Shown: in pieces, positions 2,978 to 15,206 of the stretch
How the letters are laid out: each line of letters starts with the position of its first letter
Position numbering within the stretch: the first letter of the stretch is position 1
Notes under the pieces: model-generated
Told to the model about the DNA's origin: nothing
Database searches by the model: none
The model's input: only the letters and a program-made list of their open reading frames with translations
Source: a virus
Length of the DNA: 31,565 nt
Virus record (IMG/VR): IMGVR_UViG_3300045125_000055
Coordinates: 1-31,565 of that record
Strand: one strand, 5' to 3'
Made by a program: the position numbers and the translations under genes

Positions 2978-3428
2978 CGAGCGCCTTCGGTTTGTAGACG
3001 TATTGCGCGTTTGCGTGGGGGCGTTTGCGCTCAATGTAGCCTTCTTTGCCGAGCCGAGTCAGTTGATGCAGAAGGCTTTCGCGCGTGATGTGGCAGGCCG
3101 GGTTTAGGTGCAACATGTGAATGGCCTTTGAGATGATTTCTTCGCTTGAGCGGAAGACGTTGGGTTCCGAGTCGAGCACCTGCATCAGCCCGTGGAGCCG
3201 ACGCCTGAACTCTTGGCGGTCCGCGCAGAATCGCTTCGGAACGCACAACGTCACGTTGTCGGATTTCGCGGGCACCATGCCGAGCGTCTTGGCGAGCGCG
3301 TCAAGCGCTTCTTCCTTCTTGGCTTTGAGCTCTTCGATTTCGTCGTTGAGTTTCAGCAGTTGCGCATTCTTTTCCTCAAGCTTCGCTTCGAGGTTAAACA
3401 GTTGACAGTAGAGATCACTGGTCTTCAT
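2970..3428 (-). CDS. Coiled-coil protein with C-terminal winged-helix domain
   Basis: The protein has 152 aa. Residues about 8-45 form a strong heptad coiled coil (NLEAKLEEKNAQLLKLNDEI). Residues about 95-145 look like a winged helix: IISKAIHMLHL, ITRESLLHQLTRLGKEGYIE, then a basic wing and KYVYK-like end. I chose ATG 3428 because AAGGA lies 7-8 bases upstream and the overlap with the previous gene is short. A dimeric DNA-binding regulator or replication accessory protein is the most natural reading, and the 11-bp repeat array about 130 bases upstream is a candidate site. Both points are inference. Confidence 0.65.
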   Translation of the reverse strand: MKTSDLYCQLFNLEAKLEEKNAQLLKLNDEIEELKAKKEEALDALAKTLGMVPAKSDNVTLCVPKRFCADRQEFRRRLHGLMQVLDSEPNVFRSSEEIISKAIHMLHLNPACHITRESLLHQLTRLGKEGYIERKRPHANAQYVYKPKALGA

Positions 3429-3621
3429 CTCGATTCCTTTCTTCTCCATCAACCCAAAAGATTTTTGCATCTTTCGGTAGGTTTTTGAGGTCTTCAACTC
3501 GGACTTCGATCCAAAATGCAGAACTTGGTAACGCATGGTGCAAGTCGACCAAGAGATCCTTCCGGACATCTGCCGGATATTTACCGGAGATCTTCCGGAG
3601 ATCTTCTGGAGATTTGCTCAC
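3415..3621 (-). CDS. Small hypothetical protein encoded over the 11-bp repeats
   Basis: The protein has 68 aa and starts at GTG 3621, overlapping the previous stop as GTGA. Its first 20 codons are written in the 11-bp repeat array, so that part (KSPEDLRKISGKYPADVRKD) is fixed by the DNA repeat. The rest (HHALPSSAFWIEVRVEDLKN) looks like a small mixed fold and the end is highly charged. No known family is recognised. It might exist mainly because the repeat region has to stay open for translation through the operon. Confidence 0.5.
   Translation of the reverse strand: MSKSPEDLRKISGKYPADVRKDLLVDLHHALPSSAFWIEVRVEDLKNLPKDAKIFWVDGEERNRDEDQ
3562..3616. repeat. Tandem array of five 11-bp iteron-like repeats
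   Basis: On the plus strand the unit is CCGGAGATCTT. CCGG (or CTGG) begins at 3562, 3573, 3584, 3595 and 3606, so the spacing is exactly 11 bases each time. Two neighbouring units at 3584 and 3595 are near identical and the others differ at two to four positions. Because 11 is not a multiple of three, the repeat is selected at DNA level and not as a protein repeat. Phased short repeats of this size are typical of protein-binding arrays such as origin iterons or operator clusters. Confidence 0.85.
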
Positions 3622-4683: not shown

Positions 4684-5483
4684 CTAGATGCGTTTCCTTT
4701 GTTTCAGCCGGTCGACAAGTTCGGCGGCGACGCGAGGGTCGGCGGCGGGCTCGTCGGGTGCTGAACTTATCTGTGGCGCTGCGACCACGTTTGAGGGACG
4801 AACCGCCCGTCCGACCACCTGTTCAAGGCGATCGAGAAGGGCTTTACCGTCGTACCCCTAGAAGCCACCCAGCGGTCGTCTAAGGCGAAGAAGACGGAAA
4901 TCGACCGCCGAGCCGTATCGAACGATCCGGCGATCTCTAAAAGCCTCTCAAGTGCCTTCTCGACCGTCCGTGCGTTCGGTGGCGTCGGGTCAAGTCGTCG
5001 GGCCGCTCGTTGCCGATCCCACTCAGCGCGCAGCAACGTTGCGCCCCCGGCAGGGGGCCTTGGGGGGGTCTGTTCTTCTCTTCTCTTCTCTGAGTTCCGT
5101 CCAAAAACATTCGATGGCCACTTTTCTGCGGGAGAAACATCAAGTTGGTTATTCGATGCTTGCAACAACTTGCAACCAACTTGCAGTAACTCGTCACCAA
5201 CTTGCACCAACTCGTTGCCAACTCGCAACGAATCGAGCACGACGGACCGAAACTCGGACGGGTTGCGTTGGTGGAACCACTCGCACACCCGTGCAAAGTC
5301 GGTAGCCGAGAGACCCTCGATCGGCGTGTTCGGGTGCGTGTACGCGTGGAACTTAACGCGCATCAGAATGCCCTCGGCGACGTAGTGAGCCGTCGAACGC
5401 GGCGACCATCGACGCTCGACCAGACGGTCGGCGAGCCTCGACGCGGCAAGGTCGCCGCCCGGTTTCCACTTGATGAATGCCAC
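4684..5483 (-). CDS. Replication initiator-like protein carrying phased repeats
   Basis: This is probably the origin-binding initiator, by position and architecture; no catalytic motif is expected. GTG 5483 has a strong GGGGAGG site four bases upstream. Residues about 1-80 look like a helical DNA-binding domain. Then come heptads VGNELVQ, VGDELLQ and VGCKLLQ encoded by phased DNA repeats, a low-complexity Pro/Arg/Glu linker, and a C-terminal helical domain ending in a W-containing motif, ALDDRWVAS, and ALNRWSDGRF, as seen in phage replication organisers. The frame breaks at the GGG run at 4795-4797; one added base replaces QTWSQRHR with SNVVAAPQISS and a natural end at 4684, giving 266 aa. 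Lambda O has the same layout, with the origin inside the gene. The initiator role is an inference. Confidence 0.65.
5167..5230. repeat. Six iteron-like repeats phased at 10.5 bp inside the initiator gene
   Basis: On the plus strand, units of consensus AACTTGCAACC start at 5167, 5178, 5188, 5199, 5209 and 5220. Spacings alternate 11, 10, 11, 10 and 11, which is exactly the helical pitch of B-DNA, so all units face the same side. The 21-bp composite also encodes a seven-residue protein repeat, so part of the period could come from the protein. A 10-bp inverted arm CAAGTTGGTT at 5141-5150 pairs with 5174-5183. An A/T-richer stretch and a polypyrimidine tract lie at about 5073-5160. This is a candidate replication origin. 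Confidence 0.8.
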
Positions 5484-5501: not shown

Positions 5502-6212
5502 TCACCAACAGACGTAACTCTGCACCATCCTGCGACGTAGGTCAGCAGCCTGCCCGCCAGAGCGCATGCTGTCAACCTTCGCACGGAATCCGGCGATCCG
5601 ATCCTTGAGGGTCGCCTTTGTGTCCACCACGGGAACACCATCTTCGACGTGCCATGCCCACCACTGAACCGACCACGCGACGAGCATGTCGCACAGGGCT
5701 TGGTCCTTGTAAATGCGGGTCGTGACCAACTCGCCCGGCGGGTCGTCGTCCTCGGCGTGGCCCGGCCGCACGAGGTAGGCGCAGAGGTCCCACTTGTCCG
5801 CGCCGGTGATCTCCATCGAGATCTGCACCTGCAGAATGTAGTGCAGCGGAATCTCCCCGACGCGCCACTCGCCCTGGTGGGCCTCGCCGAAGACCGTCTT
5901 GATCTCAAGGCCGTGCACGCCCTTCTTGATCCACCCGTCAGGGGTGCACGAAAGCATGTGGACCTGCGGGTGCCGGATCGTCGTCTCCTGCGAAAGGACC
6001 ACGTGCCGGGTCTCTTTTTCGTAGAGCTGCTTCACAAGCCACTCGAGGTCGTTCCCTCGGCGGGTGAAGAAGGTGTCGCGCGAAATCTGCTGGCCGCACC
6101 GCTTGTGCACCCAAACGTCAGACGGCCTGCCCCACGGGCTGATGTCCATGACGGTGCCAAGTTCCGACGCGCCTATCGCCGAGCGCCGATCGAACCTGTA
6201 GTCGAAGGTCAT
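5502..6212 (-). CDS. YqaJ-family viral recombination exonuclease
   Basis: This 236-aa protein belongs to the lambda-exonuclease/YqaJ branch of PD-(D/E)XK nucleases, which resect double-stranded DNA ends for annealing-type recombination. Motifs in order: IGASELGTVMDISPWGRPSD (YqaJ N-terminal signature), RRGNDLEWLVKQLY (conserved Glu helix), LSCTPDGW (catalytic Asp), GLEIKTVFG (E-x-K pair) and HYILQVQISMEITGADKWDL (Gln motif). All catalytic residues are present. ATG 6212 overlaps the previous stop as ATGA. It works naturally with the Sak4-like ATPase and SSB-like protein of the same operon. Confidence 0.93.
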   Translation of the reverse strand: MTFDYRFDRRSAIGASELGTVMDISPWGRPSDVWVHKRCGQQISRDTFFTRRGNDLEWLVKQLYEKETRHVVLSQETTIRHPQVHMLSCTPDGWIKKGVHGLEIKTVFGEAHQGEWRVGEIPLHYILQVQISMEITGADKWDLCAYLVRPGHAEDDDPPGELVTTRIYKDQALCDMLVAWSVQWWAWHVEDGVPVVDTKATLKDRIAGFRAKVDSMRSGGQAADLRRRMVQSYVCW

Positions 6213-6994: not shown

Positions 6995-7458
6995 TAGAAC
7001 GGCACGTCGTCGACTTCGTCCTTCAGATCCTTAGGAGGAACCGGAGGGAGGTTGTGCGGAATCGCCGGATCGTAGAAGCCGATCTCGAAGTTGACGTACT
7101 GCCCATTCTGGACACCGCGAGCGGTGACCGTGCGGCCGAGCAGGTGCGTCTGCGCGAAGGCGTCGTCGAGGAACTGCATAGGCTCGATGCCGTTCTCCTT
7201 CAGCTCGGCGATCTCCGGCCCGGTCAGGGCCGCCGCGATCACCGCGCGAAGCTTCCACAGCATCTTGCCCGAGACCGGAGCCCACCAGTCGAGTTCGCCC
7301 TGAGCGTTCGACATGGTGATGACGACCTGCGGGTTGCCCTGCTTGTCGACGATCTGCGAGCCGTCCTTCTTCTTCGACGTCACGCGGACGATGTCCACGA
7401 CGTGCGTGCCGAGGCCGAGCTTGGCGGTCTTGCCGCCGGTGTCGTCAAGCCATCCCAC
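6994..7458 (-). CDS. ssb: Single-stranded DNA-binding-like protein
   Basis: The 154-aa protein ends in PPVPPKDLKDEVDDVPF, an acidic, proline-preceded tip like the SSB C-terminal peptide (DDIPF) that recruits partner proteins. The body is beta-rich: THVVDIVRVTSKKKDGSQIV, PQVVITMSNAQGELDWW and LLGRTVTARGVQNGQYVNF, consistent with an OB fold. ATG 7458 overlaps the ATPase gene by 14 bases. Sak4-type annealases are known to work with a cognate phage SSB, so the neighbourhood supports the call. The fold itself is inferred, and another early protein with an acidic tail is the alternative. Confidence 0.65.
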   Translation of the reverse strand: MGWLDDTGGKTAKLGLGTHVVDIVRVTSKKKDGSQIVDKQGNPQVVITMSNAQGELDWWAPVSGKMLWKLRAVIAAALTGPEIAELKENGIEPMQFLDDAFAQTHLLGRTVTARGVQNGQYVNFEIGFYDPAIPHNLPPVPPKDLKDEVDDVPF

Positions 7459-8317
7459 GGTCGGCCTCCATCTGCTTCATGCGTTCGATGGCCTGCGCGA
7501 GGTTCTTGCCGTTCGCCAAGTTGTCCTCGATGTACTTGACGATCTTCTTCTGCGTCTCGAGGTCCGGAACGTTGACGACCATGCTTTGGGCGATGGCTGC
7601 CAGTTCCTTCGTCGACTTCGCCCCGGCCTTCGAGCGCGCCGCGGCGTACGCCTCGTAGGAGTTTTCGAGCACAGCAGGCGTCCCGCGGTAGCGGCACTTG
7701 GCCTCCCATGCCCCCGGCGCTGCGCGCAGGATGCGGCGTCCGGTCACCAAGATCTTCTCGTTCTCGGTCACCGTGTGGTCGATGTCGGCGAACAGGATGG
7801 TGTCGGCCCACGCGGTGATGAGAACCGACCGACTTCTGGTGCACCGACAACTCCCACTTCGTGTAATCCGACCCGCTCGGGTTCGTCATCGTCCGGACCG
7901 TCGAGTGCGCGATCAGGATGACCTCGATGCCGCGCGAAAGGCGCAGCCCGTCGAGGAGCCCGAGCAGCTCCATCCAACGGTCGACGGCGCGGGCGTAGCC
8001 CTTGCCGTAGCCGATGTCCTCGATCGTGCGGACGTCGGCCTCGGCGCAGACGTCGGCGAAGATGTACTTCTCCAAGGCGTCGAGCGTGTCGATGACGATC
8101 GTCGTGTAACCCGCCGGGAAGTCGGTGATGGTTTCCTTGACGGCCTTCCAGTTGCACGGCGTGCAACGGTCGACCTCGAGGGCACCCGACCCGCGTTCGA
8201 TGTCCAAGAACAGGGGTTCGAGCTCCCGGCCGCGAACGTCGATTTCCCGACGCCGGGGCGGCCGTAGACGAGGATGCGGTCCGGAGCGAATGACCGTCCT
8301 TTGATGATCTCAACCAT
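7445..8317 (-). CDS. Sak4-like RecA/AAA ATPase (single-strand annealing), frame broken twice
   Basis: This P-loop ATPase is of the phage AAA_24/Sak4 type, a shortened RecA relative that promotes annealing. Walker A is GRPGVGKST (about residues 20-28) and Walker B is TTIVIDTLDALE. A Ser/His strand LIAHSTVRTMTNP and a W-containing KWELSVHQK follow, then a C-terminal helical domain. The frame breaks at GGGG 8213-8216 (one added base gives NPLFLDIERGSG) and again at about 7822-7832 (restoring LITAWADTILFADID). The repaired length is about 290 aa. ATG 8317 overlaps the XRE gene by 8 bases. It should act with the SSB-like protein and YqaJ exonuclease. Confidence 0.85.
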
Positions 8318-12403: not shown

Positions 12404-12826
12404 CAGTAGGTGCTTCCGAAAACGTGGATGTTGAACGTCTCGGCCTTCTCCGTCGATGCGTATAACTTGCACGAAGCCGATGAGACTTGACCTTGCAGTA
12501 CAAGATCGGCAAGCACGGGAACGTTTACGGCATACGCCGCTGCCGTCGCCGAAGCCGTCACGGAGGGAATGATGGTCTCAGCGATGAGCCGCTTCGTTGT
12601 TCCTCCGTCGGTCGAAAGGAAGAACCGAATCATGCCTGCGGTCGTCGTTCCCGTTGCCTGCACGAAGACTGCCATTATGCGCTTGCCGACGCCGCTCCCT
12701 TGAGCCGTCGAAGGCCCCGCCGCGATTTCGACCGTCGTCCCGCTTCCGTCGCGGTTCGCGTTTGCCGTTGAGACGCTGAGAGATCTCGACCGTCGGTGCG
12801 ACGCTGTATTGTGCGCTCGTTGCCAT
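12403..12826 (-). CDS. Fibre-region structural protein, frame broken
   Basis: ATG 12826 overlaps the collagen fibre stop as TGATG. It starts [15 protein letters not shown] and, after a shift in a CT repeat near 12778-12786, continues LSVSTANANRDGSGTTVEIA to AETFNIHVFGSTY (about 141 aa). The protein is beta-rich and Thr/Ala/Gly-rich (FLSTDGGTTKRLIAETIIP). Similar small proteins accompany phage fibres and may form trimeric beta domains. No catalytic motif is seen. Confidence 0.6.
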
Positions 12827-14040
12827 CAGATAATCCCGTTGAAGAAGAACATGTAATCAGGCGCGGACGTTCCACCGCCGCCGCCGCTGTTCGCGATCCA
12901 CTTCAGACCCGTTGTCTCCGCCGAGTCAGCCGAGAGGATATACCCGTCCGTGCCGATCGCGAGCCGCGAGTCTGCCGAAGCGGTGCGCGTGAAGATGTCG
13001 CCCTTCGTCGTGAGAGGCGAGGTGAACGTCGCCGCCGCCCACACGAGGCCCGTAGTCTGACCGCTGTCAGCCTTGAGATAGTAGCCGTCGGTGCCGACGC
13101 CGAGGCGAGCGAGCGCGGAAGCGTTGCGCGTGAGGATGTCGCCTTTTGTCGTCAGCGTCGAAGTGCCGCCTTCCGGCCCTTGTGGCCCGGTCGCGCCCGT
13201 CGAACCCTGCGGGCCAGTTGCGCCTTGTGGCCCGGTGTCACCCTTTGCGCCTTGCGGGCCAGTTGCACCCGTCGAACCCTGCGGGCCAGTTGCGCCCTGA
13301 GGCCCTGTGTCGCCCTTTGCGCCTTGCGGGCCAGTTGCACCCGTCGAACCCTGCGGGCCAGTTGCGCCCTGAGGCCCTGTGTCGCCCTTTGCTCCTTGGG
13401 GACCTTGTGCGCCTGCCGCACCTTGAGCACCCTGCGCGCCGTCGGCACCCTTTGCTCCCTGAGGACCTTGCGCTCCTTGAGCGCCGTCGGCACCCTGCGG
13501 TCCCGCCGCGCCTGTATCGCCCTTCGCGCCCTGGGGTCCCTGAGCACCGTCCGCACCCTTAGCACCCTGCGGTCCCTGCGAGCCCTGAGCACCTTGTGCG
13601 CCTTGAGGTCCTTGTGAACCTTGCACGCCTTGCGCGCCTTGAGCACCCGTCGCACCGATGCCCTTGCGCGCGCCAGTGTTGTCGATGACGTACCAGCCGT
13701 CGTCGTCGTAGGCAGCCGTGTCGCCGACCGAGAGAGTCGCCTTGAACAGGGTGCGGTACACCGTCGAGCCACTCGTGTCTTTCAGGCGCACCGTCAATGT
13801 GATCGCGGCCGTGTCGACGTTCGAGATCGTCAGCCCACGAACCACGTGCTCGGTCGACGAGGCCGGGGCGGCGAGCACCGTCACGGCCGTCGTGCCGTTC
13901 AGGTCGGTGTGCTGCACCTTCGCCACGTACGTCGTGGTCGTGTGCTCGGCGTACGAGACGACCGCAGCGGGCTGCGTCGTGGCGACGGCACCGCCGAGCA
14001 GTGCTTCGAGCGTCTGGGTTGTGGCCGCGATGGTGAGCAT
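12826..14040 (-). CDS. Collagen-like tail fibre protein
   Basis: A 404-aa protein from ATG 14040 (TAATG overlap). Residues about 1-125 form a beta domain ([39 protein letters not shown]). About 128-290 is uninterrupted Gly-X-Y collagen repeat rich in GPQGA, GAKGD and GSTGA, predicted to make a triple helix. The rest has two copies of a TTKGDI-TR-AS-RL-GTDGY-ADS-TTGL-W module of about 50 residues and a glycine-rich end, FFFNGII. A trimeric adhesin or fibre shaft is the likely role. The collagen block contains a 72-bp tandem repeat. Confidence 0.85.
13177..13392. repeat. Three tandem 72-bp repeats in the collagen coding region
   Basis: Units begin at 13177, 13249 and 13321. The last two are almost identical over 72 bases and the first is diverged at several positions. 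Each encodes 24 residues, eight Gly-X-Y triplets, so the repeat can gain or lose copies without breaking frame or the collagen helix. Copy number in this assembly is uncertain. Confidence 0.85.
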
Positions 14041-15206
14041 TAGATCCCTATCGTAACCGTCTTCAGAATATCGTAGAGAGCCGTCGTGCCGCTGCCAGAA
14101 CCCGCAGGGCCTTGCGGGCCTTGAGGACCGATTGCGCCTTGCGGTCCGGTGATCGAGTCTCCTTGAGGGCCTTGAGGTCCGATGTCACCTTGCGGTCCCG
14201 TGTCACCCTTCGCGCCCTGCGGACCGATTGATCCTGTGTCACCTTTTGCACCTTGTGGCCCGGTCGCGCCTTGCGGTCCTTGGCTGCCGACTGCACCCTG
14301 TGGACCGTCGGATCCTTGAGGCCCGGTATCGCCCTTTGCACCTTGTGGTCCGGTGGCTCCGGTGTCGCCTTTCGCGCCCTGAGGTCCCGTGTCTCCCTTT
14401 GCGCCCTGAGGTCCTGTATCGCCTTTCGCGCCCTGTGGACCCTGACCTTGGGCACCTTGGGCACCCGTGGCTCCCTGAGCTCCTTGCGCGCCCGTAGCGC
14501 CCTGAGGACCCGTCGCTCCTGACGGTCCTTCCTTGCCCTCGTCGCCCTGCGGTCCTTGCGCTCCGGTATCTCCCTGAGCTCCTTGAGCGCCTTGAGGTCC
14601 GGTATCGCCCTTGGCCCCCTGCGGCCCTTGGCTTCCCGTCAACCCGGTCGCGCCCTGCGGACCCGTGAGGAAGTTGGCGACGGGCGTGACCGTCACGATC
14701 ACCGACGGAGTCAGCGGTCGCGTCGGCGTCGTGCCCGTGGCGAAGGTTTCGATCGTCACGCCCGTGTCGGTCGTCGACCACTTCAGCTCGAAGTAGTCGC
14801 CTGCGTCGGCCGTGACGACGAAGTTCCACGCCTGAACGGACTCGTGCCCACCTTTGATCGTGAACTTCGAGTTCGTGTCGGCGACGTTCGTGCCGTTCTT
14901 CGACAGCCAAAGGTCGATGTCCGCATCTGACCCGCCGGAGTGCGCGAACTGCGCGCTGAACTGAATGTCGTACGTGCCGTCGTTGTCGACCTCGATGTGC
15001 GAACTCGACACCACCGAGACGCCCGTCGAGCCGGGGTCGGTGTTGTTGAGAGTGATCGCGTAGGCCGTGTTGGCCGAGGTTGCCGACTGATCCTGCGTCG
15101 ACCAGAACGAACCCCAGTACGCCGTGCCCGAGCCGGGATCAGCAGCGCCACCCCCATTCCGAAAGGCGGCCGTCGATCGCCGTGACCTTCGGCTCGTACC
15201 GATCAT
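14040..15206 (-). CDS. C1q-like and collagen-like fibre protein
   Basis: The open frame gives 388 aa from ATG 15206, overlapping the tip gene by 68 bases. Residues about 20-165 resemble a C1q/TNF-type jelly roll ([55 protein letters not shown]). This is followed by about 190 residues of Gly-X-Y collagen repeat and a short tail, [11 protein letters not shown]. The order is head first, collagen second, the reverse of animal C1q. No good ribosome site supports the start, and a shift at GGGGG near 15152 could fuse it to the C-terminus of the J-like tip protein, so it may be the tip protein's own fibre arm. Confidence 0.75.

Follow-up and report, generated by a model that had tools for sequence, protein, structure and literature searches.

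A probable replication origin with phased iterons and a pentamer array inside a phage initiator-like gene

An initiator-like gene beside recombination genes

The window analyzed here is the whole of IMG/VR virus record IMGVR_UViG_3300045125_000055 (31,565 bases), the first 25 kb of which matched none of 50,697 phage records at the DNA level. Its minus strand carries, in this order, genes for portal, head and tail proteins, collagen-like fibres, a Sak4-like AAA protein, a RecE/YqaJ exonuclease (5502-6212) and, directly downstream of the exonuclease gene, an initiator-like gene with a GTG start at 5483 and the sequence GGGGAGG ahead of the start. Related contigs were collected by scanning with the portal protein, and in two of them, L006 and L008, this replication and recombination setting, in which RecE/YqaJ and Sak4-like genes adjoin the initiator-like gene, is kept. 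No DnaB-type helicase domain was found in the record and no helicase loader among the ORFs covered by profile scans. The gene and its predicted domains are as follows.

4767-5483, minus strand: phage replication-initiator-like gene, 238 aa (ORF; relative in the same slot of L006 and L008; N-domain profile match)
5214-5465, minus strand: N-terminal helical domain, residues about 7-90, putatively iteron-binding (AF2 pLDDT about 90; profile match)
4869-5045, minus strand: C-terminal helical domain, residues about 147-205, putative helicase-loader or host interaction part (AF2 pLDDT 82-92)

Further observations concern the record as a whole. It is listed as linear; as contigs L003 and L004 span the junction of window positions 1 and 31565 and so read across both record ends, the genome map is probably circular or circularly permuted. 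Matches of L008 to the Sak4-like AAA gene (7380-8317) fall in two overlapping ORFs and end at residue 128 of one of them, a possible frameshift or sequencing error that would split the gene over two frames. Two neighbouring collagen-like tail fibre genes (12826-15206) contain repeats of 9, 18, 27, 36, 45 and 72 bp.

When used alone, the window protein gave no significant match in profile searches, PHROG families included, and a single-protein scan of viral contigs, tblastn in phages and a genome alignment scan yielded no new close relatives. A fold search of PDB and viral structures with the AF2 model gave no Foldseek match at E<=0.001 and none that was confident; in the fold comparison the best VIA-align Z was 4.6, and the DnaD C-domain, at Z 4.2, was level with unrelated rows. 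L006 and L008, in the same slot after RecE, possess a gene with 30% amino acid identity (E 6e-15), and the L006 copy matched phrog_2509 (1.7e-8), phrog_9474 (5.7e-7) and phrog_2447 (1.4e-4), all of them designated 'replication initiation protein'. Weak tblastn matches led to orf46 of Roseburia phage Shimadzu and to HARRISON_65 of Paenibacillus phage Harrison, both annotated as replication initiation proteins, and Shimadzu as query led to 32 further loci. In an hhalign comparison with 14 annotated initiators, all of which match phrog_9474 (replication initiation protein), the profile built from the window protein and the L006 copy matched at 96.9% (E 1.7e-10) in the N-domain. By these sequence comparisons the initiator-like gene is related, through its N-domain, to phage replication-initiation families. 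Some relatives (Shimadzu, L067) also match the O-like PHROG 345, and the window protein does not.

With Shimadzu orf46 and HARRISON_65, and the PHROG 2509/9474/2447 families to which they belong, the window gene shares not only the N-domain but also the order of N-domain, repeats, period-5 array and C-domain described below. In contrast, its C-domain is not detectably related to those of the Shimadzu and Harrison proteins, and its neighbours are RecE and Sak4-like genes whereas theirs encode an SSB and a DnaC-like loader. A preliminary description of the locus, made from the bare sequence, had proposed a protein with an N-domain, a linker and a C-domain, and the AF2 model bears this out with confident N- and C-domains on either side of a low-confidence middle (residues 92-132, pLDDT mostly <50).

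Phased iterons and pentamers within the gene

The part of the gene that encodes the middle of the protein and its borders contains the following elements.

5167-5230, plus strand: six phased iterons, consensus AACTYGNNNCC, spacing 11/10/11/10/11 (read from the sequence)
5167-5177, plus strand: iteron 1, AACTTGCAACC (read directly)
5178-5187, plus strand: iteron 2, AACTTGCAGT (read directly)
5188-5198, plus strand: iteron 3, AACTCGTCACC (read directly)
5199-5208, plus strand: iteron 4, AACTTGCACC (read directly)
5209-5219, plus strand: iteron 5, AACTCGTTGCC (read directly)
5220-5230, plus strand: iteron 6, AACTCGCAACG (read directly)
5156-5166, plus strand: seventh iteron, degenerate, in phase, TGCTTGCAACA (read directly)
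5139-5149, minus strand: inverted iteron copy, ACCAACTTG on this strand (sequence comparison within the window)
5069-5168, no strand assigned: AT-richer stretch, possible unwinding region (57% AT vs a mean of 36%)
5067-5091, minus strand: five consecutive AGANN pentamers, AGAGA AGAGA AGAGA AGAAC AGACC (synonymous permutation; recurrent in relatives)
5043-5068, minus strand: C7 run and, after it, the inverted repeat GCCCCC-TGCC-GGGGGC, together a candidate for a third element (enrichment across the family; p 0.07 when the window is taken by itself)

The spacing of the six units places them on one face of the helix, as the preliminary description had claimed, with a mean resultant of 0.98 at both 10.5 and 10.67 bp per turn. 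The lag-10/11 count of the array is 16, and the maximum reached in 100 Markov-1 sequences of window length, generated with the dinucleotide frequencies of the window, was 10. In a lag-10/11 scan of the whole window only one other site, at 3553-3613, was comparable, and no second copy of the AACTYG array was found in the window. An inverted arm and an A/T-richer neighbour had likewise been noted beforehand; the former corresponds to the inverted iteron copy and the latter to a 100-bp peak that ranks third in AT content within the record.

The phasing lies at the level of the DNA. Successive units fall in different reading frames, with gag-ttg in one half of the repeat and caa-gtt-ggt in the other. 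When synonymous codons were drawn at genome usage, the mean number of 8-mer matches at lag 10/11 was 0.85 as compared to the 16 observed, and when they were drawn at the usage of the rest of the gene it was 1.25; under either usage none of 5000 draws reached 16 (p<2e-4). Several codons of the array are rare in core genes (GTT 9%, CAA 21%, TTG 6%, TTA 1%). Permutation of the array's own codons gave p 0.13, which indicates that the signal lies in the choice of codons and not in their order. The protein sequence thus does not account for the 10/11-bp half-repeat; conversely, the repeated peptide would be a tolerated by-product in a disordered linker. A peptide-pattern scan of viral contigs for the heptad that the repeat encodes returned one match, which was irrelevant.

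About 65 bp beyond the iterons follows the AGANN array, the only such array in the window, and then the C-run and the inverted repeat. The array was reached in 0 of 300 synonymous permutations, its 4-pentamer core is expected 0.08 times by chance, and its complement reads TnnT every 5 nt. A pyrimidine tract had been pointed out here before; it is present at 5074-5091 (TCTTC x3.6 according to TRF) and turns out to be the AGANN array seen from the other strand. The window hairpin is graded as weak because its single-stranded DNA fold was not better than that of shuffled sequences. Over the initiator family, stems in the 60 bp after the array were modestly enriched (mean score 13.3 vs 11.1), as were stems around array and iterons (13.4 vs 10.6), with hardly any enrichment elsewhere. 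The C-run was rejected as a general downstream element, being present in 13 of 54 genes with a mean not above the null.

Recurrence of the layout in other phages

At the same place in its gene, L006 contains different repeats, GCACGCACGC, which are not cleanly 10/11-phased (spacings of about 20 and 14) and are followed by AGAAG AGAGG AGAAT AGAGG AGAAC and next by a C-run with an inverted repeat. As it was the window, L006 and Shimadzu that first suggested the AGANN idea, these three are not independent of it. In 19 of 27 non-redundant genes, a set that includes the window gene with its own p of 0.047, DNA repeats were in excess of those under synonymous permutation (p<=0.02); most of them lay in mid-gene, and their lags were 10-11 and multiples thereof or multiples of 5. 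Of the periods 4-16, period 5 was the conspicuous one in the initiator set, with AGA as the strongest trinucleotide at that period and with ACC, AGG or ACA in its place in other members.

A scan of viral contigs with a pattern of seven AGANN pentamers plus AGA detected at least 120 contigs. Among the matches listed, the longest ORF over the array was on the array's strand in 60 of 80 loci, and in 42 non-redundant genes the array mostly started at nt 372-455; in the 40 of these analyzed further below, the usual start was 370-510 nt into the gene. Genes with the array matched PHROGs for replication initiation, replisome organizer, DnaD-like, primosomal and O-like proteins, most of them replication initiators. 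After removal of two outliers, the lag spectrum of the 180 bp before the array was obtained for the remaining 40 genes, which had been picked by the array alone without any part played by the spectrum. Repeats at lag 11 numbered 123 vs 5.0 expected (in 19 genes) and at lag 10 they numbered 13 vs 1.3; further peaks occurred at lag 21 (64 vs 12.7), lag 22 (43 vs 2.0), lag 33 (40 vs 12.5), lag 42 (45 vs 12) and lag 55 (16 vs 0.6). Lags 13-20 and 25-28 were nearly empty, the earlier part of the same genes had almost no repeats at the peak lags, and 25 of the 40 genes individually showed upstream repeats at p<=0.05. The recurrence of iterons followed by pentamers is thus directly visible in genes selected for the pentamers only. 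When lambda O, TP901-1 rep and 80alpha gp20 were examined for AGANN, none was significant, and the pentamer rule is therefore not universal.

In L053 and L111 the pair of iterons and AGANN array lies in noncoding DNA. In four further contigs (L059, L073, L082 and L126) no long ORF covers the array, which directly follows GTCACATGTGACA..GTGAC palindromes (GTGACA-type), with a thioredoxin-like gene about 1 kb downstream in all four and a DNA-methyltransferase-like gene upstream in L059 and L126; these sites are candidate origins of an uncultured phage group. The linker is hypervariable across the initiator family. The initiators L020:2001-2885 and L028:2001-2927 have different N-domains and an almost identical C-domain, with the similarity beginning just past the repeat and pentamer region, a pattern resembling a recombinational exchange of domains at the origin. 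In other family members similar N-domains are joined to two unrelated C-domains (LYNEIC vs FWKAYPKK types).

Several known systems resemble the window. The lambda origin lies inside gene O and consists of iterons and a strand-asymmetric purine AT region (PMC7466680, PMC5043065), and like the elements of the window it is situated in mid-gene between the N- and C-domains, with the iterons first and the purine-rich AT region after them. However, it has four iterons of 18 bp, annotated at distances of 20-24 bp and described as inverted repeats, whereas those of the window are short direct units at 10/11 bp, and lambda O is without the significant AGANN array that the window has. Helical phasing is known from plasmid iterons (PMC5043065). 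In SPP1 the initiator gene, gene 38, contains oriL, where gp38 binds to direct repeats and an AT-rich element serves for unwinding (PMC6316719), an arrangement that by its published description is like that of the window; in SPP1, gp38 also binds oriR, a further origin (PMC6316719), whereas no second copy of the iteron array was found in the window. In 80alpha a putative rep_origin is annotated inside gp20. With the DnaA-trio/DRE of B. subtilis oriC the window shares a short periodic motif beside duplex sites, and TnnT occurs repeatedly both in the DRE and in the AGANN complement; on single-stranded DNA, a pair of TnnT motifs is required by DnaD of B. subtilis (PMC10201434). As DnaA-trios have period 3 and the window array has period 5, this is an analogy only, and the connection to DnaD and TnnT is no more than a lead because the ACCNN and AGGNN arrays of some relatives give no TnnT.

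Alternative readings and the proposed origin

The comparable array mentioned above needs to be considered together with the alternatives to an origin in the initiator-like gene.

3553-3613, no strand assigned: second array in helical phase, 5.5 units of 11 bp with TCCGGA as core, unit ATCTCCGGAAG (rival or companion site outside the main origin)

This array lies in the gap upstream of a minus-strand gene (2970 to about 3428) whose product has a coiled coil and weakly matches a leucine-zipper DNA-binding family. No other 100 bp of the record are as AT-rich as those beside the array, which has the look of either an operator or another origin. Phased direct repeats are also typical of operator arrays, and the position of the 3553-3613 array ahead of a leucine-zipper/winged-helix-like gene resembles an operator. 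The in-gene iterons might likewise be a regulatory binding site, for autorepression or with a partition-like or packaging function, for the encoded protein or another factor, and not an origin. This we consider unlikely, as mid-gene position, AGANN array and 3' hairpin recur jointly and specifically in replication initiator genes, and as in lambda, SPP1 and 80alpha the origin, whether proven or annotated, lies at this mid-gene position too.

Alternatively, the true origin might be at 3387-3613, comprising the second array and its AT-rich neighbour, with the in-gene array being secondary, or there might be two origins like oriL and oriR of SPP1, which provides a precedent (PMC6316719). The second array has 5.5 units at a regular 11 bp and a lag count of 18 as compared to 16 for the in-gene array, and besides the AT-rich neighbour a detrended skew extremum lies near 3.8 kb. 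GC skew, which the preliminary description had named as a check, proved uninformative (cumulative minimum at 16.8 kb, detrended maximum at 3.8 kb) and was set aside because its range was only marginally above that of a random walk; at face value the minimum falls away from the in-gene array, an outcome that the preliminary description had listed as refuting, and skew gives the in-gene origin no support. TCCGGA is unrelated to AACTTG, and therefore the second array is not a site of the same protein; moreover, its gene slot is absent from L006 and L008, which retain the initiator gene, and the weak leucine-zipper match of the downstream gene suits an operator. An origin at the second array is accordingly an improbable reading.

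It is very unlikely that selection acted on the repeat as protein, as an oligomerising coiled coil with a leucine heptad of which the DNA repeat would be a consequence. The 21-bp period does write the heptad VGNELVQ-VGDELLQ-VGCKLLQ, to which the preliminary description had ascribed a protein function; this part of it did not hold and the coiled coil was rejected, since the half-repeat does not keep the codon register and far exceeds what synonymous codon choice yields, L006 has no leucine heptad in register there, residues 92-132 are modelled with the low confidence given above, and the peptides vary across the initiator family while the 11-bp lag persists. A neutral minisatellite, generated by slippage in a tolerant linker, would fit a linker that is predicted to be disordered and is hypervariable across the family, and an array known from one sequence, but it is just as hard to credit, as slippage alone predicts neither the 10/11 alternation nor a partner AGANN array, nor the enrichment at 11, 22 and 33 bp with near-absence at 13-20 and 25-28 in 40 diverse genes.

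The region 5043-5230 is thus probably a phage replication origin embedded in its own initiator gene, to which the initiator would bind and from which replication would start. This reading, an origin with phased iterons inside the initiator gene on the plan of lambda O, had been put forward in the preliminary description and is supported by the relationship of the gene to initiator families, by repeats that exceed codon needs and by a layout that recurs in many unrelated phage initiator genes and at times in noncoding DNA. Its parts are best read as phased iterons for duplex binding, followed by a period-5 array for opening or single-strand loading and often by a hairpin. In such an origin the N-domain of the initiator would bind along one face of the helix to the phased iterons, which it would wrap or bend, and the strain would open the adjoining AT-richer stretch with the AGANN array. 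By analogy with the systems described above, the initiator or a DnaD/DnaC-like loader might then capture one strand of the pentamer array, upon which the host helicase and subsequently the replisome would be loaded.

With about even confidence we propose, more generally, that phage origins within initiator genes share a two-part code of iterons phased at 10-11 bp and then pentamers with a fixed trinucleotide (mostly AGANN, in others ACCNN, AGGNN or ACANN), often with a hairpin, that the pentamers are a single-strand helicase-loading site and the phage counterpart of DnaA-trios/DRE, and that such origins can be found by pattern alone. In titles and abstracts of a largely open-access literature, no mention was found of phage origins with a period-5 array. 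The origin is unmapped in most uncultured phages. Should the proposal be true, the layout of iterons plus pentamers would place origins to the base in many phage genomes from sequence alone, it would become directly testable what a period-5 single-strand motif does when helicase is loaded, and odd repeated peptides in the middle of phage replication proteins (RVDKSRVDKSR, KIRLDKIRLDK) would be DNA elements that are read through.
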